From contig CASFBR010000055.1 of NCBI GenBank assembly GCA_949292795.1, forward strand, positions 1-39,590: 39,590 nt of DNA, given 5' to 3'. This document shows, in pieces, positions 5,766 through 7,858 of this stretch. The stretch is from an uncultured Eubacteriales bacterium (GTDB lineage Bacteria > Bacillota > Clostridia > Lachnospirales > Lachnospiraceae). Made by a program: the position numbers and the translations under genes. The notes beneath the pieces were generated by a model. The model saw only the letters and a list, made by a program, of their open reading frames with translations. It ran no database searches and was not told the DNA's origin. How positions within the stretch are numbered: position 1 is the stretch's first letter; the number at the start of each line of letters is the position of its first letter.

Positions 5766-6518
5766 TCAATGATGGATTTCATCCGGTTTAAGCATCTCTT
5801 TTTTCAAACGCAGGATGATCTTTTTTTCAAGCCTTGAAATGTACGACTGGGAAATGCCGAGCATATCTGCCACCTCCTTCTGGGTCTTTTCCCGACCGTC
5901 GCCGCTGCCAAGGCCATAGCGCATCCGTATGATCGTCTGCTCCCGCTCCGACAGCTTTTCTAATGCCGCATTTAAAAGCATACGGTCCGCTTCATCCTCA
6001 AGGCCTTTTGATACCTCATCCTCGTCCGTTCCTAAAATATCAGACAAAAGCAGTTCATTTCCATCCCAGTCCACGTTCAGCGGCTCATCGATGGACACCT
6101 CCATCCGGGTTTTATTATTCCGCCGCAGATACATAAGAATCTCATTTTCAATGCACCGCGATGCATAGGTGGCCAGTTTAATATTCTTTCCCGGATTAAA
6201 CGAATTGATCGCTTTGATCAGGCCGATCGTTCCAATGGAGATCAGATCCTCCACCCCGACACCGGTATTATCAAATTTTTTTGCGATATAGACGACCAGT
6301 CTCAGATTGTGCTCGATGAGCAGCGTTTTTCCATGCTTTTCCATGCTCGTGCCGATCATATTGATCGCTTTTTGCTCCTGCTCTCCCTCCAGCGGCACCG
6401 GAAGCACCTCCGCTCCGCCTATATAAAAAATTTCCCCGTTTTTCGGATAAATAATACTGCAAAAGCCCTGCATCATCTTCGAGTGCAGCCGTCTGGCCAG
6501 AGCTATATTTTTAAACAT
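5766..6518 (-). CDS. sigE: RNA polymerase sporulation sigma factor SigE (pro-form)
   Basis: Sigma-E controls early mother-cell gene expression and is made as an inactive membrane-associated precursor cut by SpoIIGA. The 250-aa product has a pro-sequence of about 30 residues ending near [10 protein letters not shown] (31-40), the site equivalent to the YYIGGSEALP region of Bacillus. It then has region 2 ([45 protein letters not shown]), [18 protein letters not shown], and the C-terminal helix-turn-helix [27 protein letters not shown] precedes the ATG. It lies 39 bp after spoIIGA and is presumably co-transcribed with it from 7606-7638. A hairpin follows at 5710-5737. Confidence 0.97.
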
Positions 6519-6557: not shown

Positions 6558-7586
6558 TTATTGACCTGCATCCGGCCTTTGTCCCCTCCGGCGGCAAAGC
6601 CGGCGCTCCCGGGCGCAAAGCCTGGCGCCGGTGAGCATCTGCGGATGCAGTATGCCCTGATAAGTGCCTTTTCCGGAAAAATGACCGGGATAAATTCCGA
6701 TCACCGCACCTGCATACTCATAGAGCGTGCGGCCATCGCAAATCACCGCGCGGTCTGCCACCACCGCCGTCATTTTTCCCTGACGTATGCCGATGGTGTG
6801 AAACGGCACGGACAGACGTGCTTTATTCATATCTTTAAAACAGGTATCTTGTAAAATTTCATCAACAGCAGCTTGCTCTACGACCGTTACCGGCCTGCCA
6901 AAAACCGGTTCATGCAGCTGATTTCCCGTATCCAGAAGTACCCTTAGCGTCACTTTTTTTACGCCAAACTCCAGGCACAGTTCGTAAATATGCGCCAGAT
7001 TACTTTGGCGGCGGTTCCACAATGCCAGCGCGCCAATCCCTGCGGCGCAGGCTGCCCCTGTGCAAAGTCCCAGCCACAGCCAGCCGCAAAGCATCCCGGA
7101 TGCCGCTGCAGCTTCAGACAGTATTTCATATGATTCCGGCGCAGGCGCCGATGGAATAAGATCACGATCCGGTGTCACAAGATTTTCAAGAAGCGAAAAA
7201 ACACCTCCGGTAAATATCGCTGTGCCGTAAAGTACAGCTACGTTTTTCATCAGGATGTGTTTGTTATGTATGCCAAATGCAAGAAAGATCATCAGCATAC
7301 TCAAAAGAATGTAAGAAATGCCTGTACTTGCAATATTTTGTATAATCCCCGGCACGCCGGCCGCACCGCCGGGGAAGCGTACATTCGCGGACACGGTCCA
7401 TACGGTATCGATGCAGCAATAAAGGCTTCCCGCTGCCGCAGCGGCCATGATCCGCAAAAATGAGGCCGGCTGTTTTAAAAACAGACAGGTCAAAAGCAGC
7501 AGCGCACTGTTTATCAGGACATTTTCCAAAAACAGCAGATCAACATAAACAACGATCCCGCGATCACCTCCTGAATGCTTATCCAT
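6558..7586 (-). CDS. spoIIGA: Sigma-E processing peptidase SpoIIGA
   Basis: Membrane aspartic-type protease that removes the sigma-E pro-sequence after septation. The first half holds about five hydrophobic helices. The second half is a cytoplasmic protease domain with the catalytic-type motif LLDTGNQL (Asp219) and later VPFHTIG and GIYPG. The listed start is the ATG at 7586, but it has no SD site and would lie only about 13 nt from the predicted transcription start. A near-perfect SD (AGGAGGTGATC, 7572-7562) lies inside codons 5-8, and homology to other SpoIIGA proteins (MKIYLD in Bacillus) begins at the ATC codon at 7556, read as I-V-V-Y-V-D. Initiation at AUC, or a single-base error in an ATG, is therefore possible. 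sigE follows by 39 bp. Confidence 0.9.
   Translation of the reverse strand: MDKHSGGDRGIVVYVDLLFLENVLINSALLLLTCLFLKQPASFLRIMAAAAAGSLYCCIDTVWTVSANVRFPGGAAGVPGIIQNIASTGISYILLSMLMIFLAFGIHNKHILMKNVAVLYGTAIFTGGVFSLLENLVTPDRDLIPSAPAPESYEILSEAAAASGMLCGWLWLGLCTGAACAAGIGALALWNRRQSNLAHIYELCLEFGVKKVTLRVLLDTGNQLHEPVFGRPVTVVEQAAVDEILQDTCFKDMNKARLSVPFHTIGIRQGKMTAVVADRAVICDGRTLYEYAGAVIGIYPGHFSGKGTYQGILHPQMLTGARLCARERRLCRRRGQRPDAGQ
7562..7572 (-). promoter_or_regulatory. Strong ribosome binding site inside the listed spoIIGA frame
   Basis: AGGAGGTGATC on the minus strand matches the 16S anti-SD almost fully. After AGGAGG, 10 bases lead to the ATC codon at 7556, which aligns with the start Met of Bacillus SpoIIGA. 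No ATG, GTG or TTG in frame lies at a usable distance. Confidence 0.7.
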
Positions 7587-7605
7587 AAGCTTCGGCGTCG
7601 GTTAT

Positions 7606-7638
7606 AGTATACTCTTTTTGGAATGATTTTTTTGTCAA
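7606..7638 (-). promoter_or_regulatory. spoIIG-type promoter with long spacer and 0A-like box
   Basis: On the minus strand a perfect TTGACA (7638-7633) and TATACT (7611-7606) are separated by 21 bp rather than 17. The Bacillus subtilis spoIIG promoter, used by sigma-A with Spo0A~P, also has consensus-like hexamers with an over-long 22-bp spacer. The -35 overlaps TTTGACA, one base from the 0A box TTCGACA. A second box is not clear. Confidence 0.7.
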
Positions 7639-7678: not shown

Positions 7679-7858
7679 TCACAGTTTCGCGGCAGAGCCG
7701 TCCAGCCGGCGGATCATCCGGTCCGATACCGCACGGATACCGTAGATAAGCAGCAGAAGGATGCCCAGGGGGATCGCCAGTACGGCTACCAGCCAGATCA
7801 GCAGCCAGGCGACAATATTACAGCAGATTTTTTTGAATTGAAGAAATTGACGTGACAT
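7679..7858 (-). CDS. 59-aa single-span membrane protein, unknown function
   Basis: A short frame running from ATG (7858) to TGA (7679), with GAGGTGG 7 bases before the start. The product begins MSRQFLQFKKICCN. One hydrophobic helix spans about residues 15-40 (rich in Leu, Ile, Val, Trp), followed by a positively charged tail (IRAVSDRMIRRLDG). By the positive-inside rule both ends are basic, so topology is unclear. I do not recognise the family. It sits between ftsZ and spoIIGA on the same strand, about 70 bp upstream of the spoIIGA promoter. A possible extended -10 (TGCTACAAT, TACAAT at 7937-7932) lies upstream. A division or sporulation link is only suggested by position. Confidence 0.65.
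   Translation of the reverse strand: MSRQFLQFKKICCNIVAWLLIWLVAVLAIPLGILLLLIYGIRAVSDRMIRRLDGSAAKL

Follow-up and report, generated by a model that had tools for sequence, protein, structure and literature searches.

The window analysed here, a stretch of 39,590 nucleotides that is contig 55 in an assembly of 171 contigs from a member of the Lachnospiraceae, carries on its minus strand a sporulation locus in which a TTGACA/TATACT promoter is followed by spoIIGA and then by sigE. The -35 element (TTGACA, 7633..7638) and the -10 element (TATACT, 7606..7611) are separated by a spacer of 21 nt, and the same promoter with the same spacer is conserved in all four genomes of the genus that were sampled, the window's own included. 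A promoter scan missed this spoIIG promoter because only spacers of 16-18 nt were allowed; a long spacer is typical of Spo0A-activated sigma-A promoters. The coding sequence of spoIIGA, read from the AUC codon proposed here as its start, occupies 6558..7556 (332 amino acids and a stop codon), and the next gene, sigE (5766..6518), which begins with ATG and served as our control gene, encodes pro-sigma-E, the substrate of SpoIIGA. According to the available part of a report on C. difficile, spoIIGA forms an operon with sigE in that species, and its promoter region is a target of Spo0A binding (PMC3789822); we assume that both features would carry over to the locus described here.

Three further observations concern the surroundings of the locus. 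Between ftsZ and spoIIGA lies an ORF of 59 amino acids with a membrane-like product (7679-7858, minus strand), for which no Pfam or NCBIfam match was obtained, and codons that resemble it are visible upstream of spoIIGA in two other genomes of the genus (G001 and G002). Positions 1882-2718 of the plus strand encode, in a bacterial genome, a eukaryotic-type HisA (NCBIfam TIGR02129 hisA_euk, 301.2 bits against a cut-off of 229.3), and a tandem repeat (1553-1804, unit of 120 nt, 2.1 copies, 95% match) is located just upstream of this hisA-like gene.

The predicted SpoIIGA protein matches the Pfam family PF03419 (Peptidase_U4) with 188.8 bits against a cut-off of 28.4, its residues 2-307 covering the profile over its full length (positions 1-284 of 284). 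It also aligns with positions 2-293 of 293 of the NCBIfam equivalog TIGR02854, at 138.4 bits and below the cut-off of 209.55; by this stricter model the protein of the window is divergent, and the predicted product is assigned to the Pfam family only. The DTGN motif, which we take to represent the D-[ST]-G motif of aspartic proteases, and the N-terminal YxDxLF motif are invariant in the four genomes of the genus. SigE scored above the cut-offs of NCBIfam NF006158 and TIGR02835, and a sigE match is present at all of the 157 spoIIGA loci of the family.

The longest ORF at the spoIIGA locus is opened by an ATG at 7584..7586; ahead of the conserved Tyr, the window gene has no further ATG, GTG or TTG in frame. 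As an earlier note on this DNA had remarked, this codon has no Shine-Dalgarno (SD) site and stands about 13 nt after the predicted transcription start; the duplex is only -1.1 kcal/mol, and the start of transcription was placed 7 nt behind the -10 element. The codon is also unconserved, and it is probably not used. Inside the frame lies an extended SD of 11 nt, AGGAGGTGATC (7562..7572), which contains AGGAGG at 7572-7567 and is separated by exactly 10 nt (7566-7557) from an ATC at 7554..7556. The coordinates that the note had given for this near-perfect SD and for the ATC were confirmed, as was its statement that the homology to other SpoIIGA proteins begins there, given that the first position of the PF03419 profile falls on the very next codon (7553). 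It had also been claimed that no in-frame ATG, GTG or TTG fits this SD, and indeed none was found at a usable distance, the ATG at 7586 being alone upstream of the Tyr. A search for RNA structure in the spoIIGA leader gave no signal (z = -0.16).

The other three genomes of the genus match Candidatus Scybalocola faecigallinarum, Ca. S. faecavium and the cultured Catenibacillus scindens DSM 106146 (G003), whose genus NCBI assigns to the Lachnospiraceae. In the column of the proposed start these genomes show ATT, ATT and, in C. scindens, ATC, so that with the ATC of the window the column is ATC or ATT in 4/4; the AUC initiation put forward in the earlier note thus finds near-cognate codons, not ATG, in the close relatives. 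From the upstream stop to the conserved Tyr, no in-frame ATG, GTG or TTG is present in G002 and G003, and the C. scindens leader, from the -10 element to the ATC, is devoid of ATG and TTG in any frame and carries a single out-of-frame GTG inside the SD. G001 also has in-frame ATG and TTG codons, and a G002 ATG that resembles that of G001 stands in another frame. Initiation at the -3 codon (TTG in G001, CTG in G002) was considered and is disfavoured, since this codon is GTT in G000 and ATT in G003; it is also 16 nt away from AGGAGG.

Starts were then read across the family. SpoIIGA was found in 199 of the 299 genomes searched, and the start region was read in the 132 at the top of the score list and in two more of the genus (134 in all), to which 23 genomes from the genera of G011, G096 and G270 were added, for a total of 157; the genera of G223 and G023 offered no further genome. 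Starts were assigned by a rule-based caller that makes use of the SD, with three resets by hand (G049, G062 and G255, from CTT, CTG and CTG, respectively, to GTG), the hit start taken as the anchor in G089, where the Tyr motif was not found, and the position corrected in G142. Neither a fragment (G405) nor the second, weak hit in G408 was read, the start region was not found by motif in G302, G382, G363 and G323, and loci L039-L067 lie outside the counts. The 157 starts comprise 49 GTG, 37 ATG, 31 TTG, 23 ATT, eight ATC, five ACG, two CTG and two others. Twenty genes, nine of them within the 134, are strict cases, that is, without any in-frame ATG, GTG or TTG from the upstream stop to the Tyr, and 17 of these 20 have ATT, ATC or ACG behind an SD; in G011, G096, G392 and G418 a stop codon directly precedes the ATT. 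The earlier note had described a rare AUC initiation: the AUC start stood, and the scope was understated, given that near-cognate spoIIGA starts recur across the family.

The near-cognate column is conserved in four genera, namely 4/4 in that of the window, 16/17 in that of G011, 6/6 in that of G270, where ATT is invariant and five genes are strict cases, and 3/3 in that of G096, where TAG directly precedes the ATT in each genome. In the genus of G011, 22 genomes were searched, of which 18 gave a match and 17 could be read; the -9 codon there is ATT in eight, ATC in four, ACG in four and GCG in one, and the -12 and -15 codons appear in 11 forms each, stops included. Only 6/17 are strict here: an in-frame GTG lies within the SD of G413 and of all four ACG genomes, TTG occurs at -30 in several others, and in G408 both GTG and TTG are nearby. 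The SD-to-start gap of this genus shifts by single bases, so that the sequence before the codon does not behave as a single coding frame. In 108 of the 157 genomes a canonical start was called at -12 or beyond, and there the -9 residue is mostly Tyr (74/108) and Ile in four; retention of Ile for reasons of the protein is thereby disfavoured. The dN/dS values of 14 pairs (0.12-0.34) indicate that these spoIIGA genes are under purifying selection.

Three genomes show that a rule of near-cognate starts is incomplete. In G401 (L177) and G214 (L086) an SD is present, no canonical start precedes the Tyr, and no near-cognate codon stands at a plausible distance; here a strong SD might be enough by itself, or the genes might be damaged or misassembled. 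In G253 (L094), which also lacks an in-frame canonical start, an ATG in another frame stands just upstream, and this gene may have a frame shift near its start or an assembly error.

The strength of the SD varies with the start codon. The median duplex energy was -10.4 kcal/mol for ATG, -14.1 for GTG, -14.4 for TTG and -17.1 for 37 non-canonical cases, the last with a median of 11 SD pairs; G214, G401 and G253 were left out of this comparison. Since the caller itself uses the SD, the comparison was repeated in a fixed window, which gave -11.2 kcal/mol for ATG, -14.1 for GTG, -15.2 for TTG and -15.5 for the 20 strict cases, so that the strict cases are clearly distinct from ATG (p = 3e-5, or p = 0.01 with seven representatives) and barely exceed the TTG starts. 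The genomes are related and do not count as independent, for which reason these p-values are too optimistic. In the non-canonical genes the SD is no closer to the start: the median distance from the last pair is 5 nt, versus 4 for ATG, 3 for GTG and 2 for TTG, and the 10-nt gap of the window exceeds the mode of 6 nt for canonical spoIIGA starts. A pattern for the 3' end of the 16S rRNA was matched in 0/9 genomes, a single-contig genome included, a result with no bearing on the anti-SD.

Starts of sigE were called in the same way as those of spoIIGA. Among the 157 loci searched, 156 could be anchored, with 147 ATG, seven GTG and two TTG starts and none without a canonical start. In the sample of 134 genomes ATG opens spoIIGA in 37/134 and sigE in 127/133; the discordant pairs comprise 90 in which a non-ATG spoIIGA accompanies an ATG sigE and none of the reverse type (p = 1e-33, a value too small given the relatedness of the genomes). 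The contrast between the two genes is evident even so.

The number of origins was estimated on a FastTree tree of SpoIIGA and sigma-E with 157 rows, in which 51 of the 154 inner branches have support under 80. Without eight ambiguous rows (G214, G401, G253, G103, G059, G099, G408 and G202), canonical and non-canonical starts are related by six parsimony changes on this one tree. The genus of the window groups with G293, which probably uses a CTG start. Beyond the family, a non-random sample of 90 loci (the 30 top-scoring loci and 60 chosen by hand to widen the range) from the 178 genomes of the class with a match gave 45 ATG, 24 GTG, 17 TTG, three ATA and one ATC, and the sigE control gave 49 ATG, nine TTG and eight GTG among 66 anchored genes. 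Three loci of this sample have no canonical start (G456 with ATC, G440 with ATA, and G610, unclear); in G456 (L257) and G440 (L278) the ATC or ATA stands at SD distance. The ATA call in G597 was rejected as an artefact, since that locus begins at a contig edge and an in-frame ATG is present. From these samples the near-cognate spoIIGA start so far appears to be much commoner within the family and not confined to it.

Several other explanations of the spoIIGA start have to be considered. The alternative to AUC initiation offered in the earlier note was a single-base error or mutation of ATG, considered here as a fault of the sequencing or assembly or as a recent change, and the window does sit in an assembly of 171 contigs; however, ATC or ATT stands in the column in 4/4 of the genus, the cultured strain included, other genera have ATT throughout, and one of their genomes, G392, is listed as a single contig. 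The C. scindens leader, with no in-frame canonical start, excludes a sequencing error and also makes upstream initiation or frameshifting unlikely, and we regard the error as practically discounted. Initiation at the ATG at 7586, from a nearly leaderless mRNA (about 13 nt) and with a 10-residue extension (MDKHSGGDRG), has in its favour that no other ATG, GTG or TTG stands in frame upstream of the Tyr, yet this codon lacks an SD, neither G002 nor G003 has an ATG in frame, and the downstream SD of 11 nt would serve no purpose; we consider this reading quite improbable. Still less credence is given to programmed frameshifting, in which ribosomes would slip into spoIIGA from an out-of-frame upstream ORF under the stimulus of the internal SD. 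Such ORFs are present, since an ATG 71 nt upstream in G002 opens an overlapping ORF of 37 codons, and the GTG inside the SD opens one of 16-17 codons in another frame in 4/4 of the genus, but the G003 leader lacks ATG and TTG in any frame and the stops directly before the ATT in G011, G096, G392 and G418 speak against it.

The most serious alternative accepts the near-cognate start as real and rivals only its purpose in dosage, proposing that the start codon drifted and was tolerated under a strong SD. The cell may require very little SpoIIGA, and the type of start changes several times on the tree. Against it, ATT, ATC and ACG are kept through whole genera, even though each is one base away from ATG, the weaker start codons go with the stronger SDs, and sigE of the same loci keeps its ATG; drift of this kind seems to us rather unlikely, well ahead of the readings above in plausibility.

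Comparison of the genomes strongly supports initiation at the near-cognate column, and the AUC start of the window spoIIGA is very probably real. The same comparison supports a spoIIGA start that is non-canonical, conserved and recurrent, in a frame under purifying selection. Our main reading, with a probability of about 0.84, is that conserved and inefficient near-cognate initiation limits SpoIIGA relative to pro-sigma-E. We infer that AUC would be decoded by the initiator tRNA, that the yield would be low and that the benefit would lie in timing. The helix formed by the extended SD would hold the 30S subunit and lead to the selection of AUC as the start, and the inefficient codon would yield little SpoIIGA per mRNA; sigE, which probably shares the transcript, has AUG as its start and would provide pro-sigma-E in excess. 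SpoIIGA would then be limiting for the processing of pro-sigma-E, which would guard against premature sigma-E activity in the mother cell. The suggestion of the earlier note that the AUC keeps the protease low would fit this family-wide pattern.

A wider reading is tentative and, in our judgement, somewhat short of even odds: selection throughout the family may favour poor starts (GTG and TTG, and repeatedly AUU, AUC and ACG), with the strength of the SD setting a narrow dose of SpoIIGA, AUC and ACG being natural, conserved starts, and a coupling of sporulation commitment to IF3 being possible. As a speculation, the presumed IF3 sensitivity of AUC and ACG could couple this commitment to the status of the initiation factors at the entry into stationary phase.

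Near-cognate starts that limit synthesis are known in E. coli, where infC, the gene for IF3, and pcnB both start at AUU. The spoIIGA start would be alike in that a near-cognate codon is proposed to limit synthesis; it differs in the gene, in the use of AUC and ACG besides AUU, and in that no IF3 feedback is known at spoIIGA. As a side observation, infC in the genus of the window (L197-L200) probably begins at an ATT behind GGAGGTG in 4/4, even though in-frame ATG codons stand four codons before this ATT and several after it. In the available part of a study of Staphylococcus aureus, infC starts at AUA, and in cvfC1 (AUU) and ccpN (AUA) a non-canonical start is conserved behind an extended SD (PMC13009471). 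In poor medium the three reporters tested there reached about 10% of the AUG level, and in rich medium ccpN reached up to 30% (PMC13009471). The spoIIGA start resembles those of ccpN and cvfC1 in the conservation of a non-canonical codon across species and in the extended SD pairing. In contrast, reduced output was measured in S. aureus and is proposed here, the SD at spoIIGA stands no closer to the start than it does behind canonical codons of this gene, AUC does not appear in the available text of that study (PMC13009471), and the gene concerned encodes a sporulation protease whose type of start has changed several times within a single family. A mutation of the start codon to AUC in a B. 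subtilis rny-lacZ fusion still allowed expression, at much lower levels, in the accessible part of another report (PMC10303841). A further precedent is sigG of Bacillus, in which a weak GTG or TTG start acts in a sporulation switch with an effect of about 1.3-fold and, in B. subtilis, as one of several brakes on this gene; in the portion of the source available, its start is non-ATG in 11/15 Bacilli and 1/13 Clostridia (PMC5942855). Both sigG and spoIIGA are sporulation regulators with a suboptimal start codon, and the sigG starts are GTG or TTG only. No report of a near-cognate spoIIGA start was found in the literature searched, which is partial, with subscription journals largely outside it.

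Gene finders accept mainly ATG, GTG and TTG, so the start of spoIIGA is probably misannotated, or the gene missed, in many spore formers of the Lachnospiraceae. To our knowledge, conserved AUC and ACG starts are very rare in bacteria, and in this family they turn up repeatedly at a single gene, next to a sigE that begins with AUG. The family offers a natural series of starts (ATG, GTG, TTG, ATT, ATC and ACG) in which the trade-off between SD strength and start codon can be studied, and the pattern as a whole suggests a simple translational control over the activation of sigma-E.
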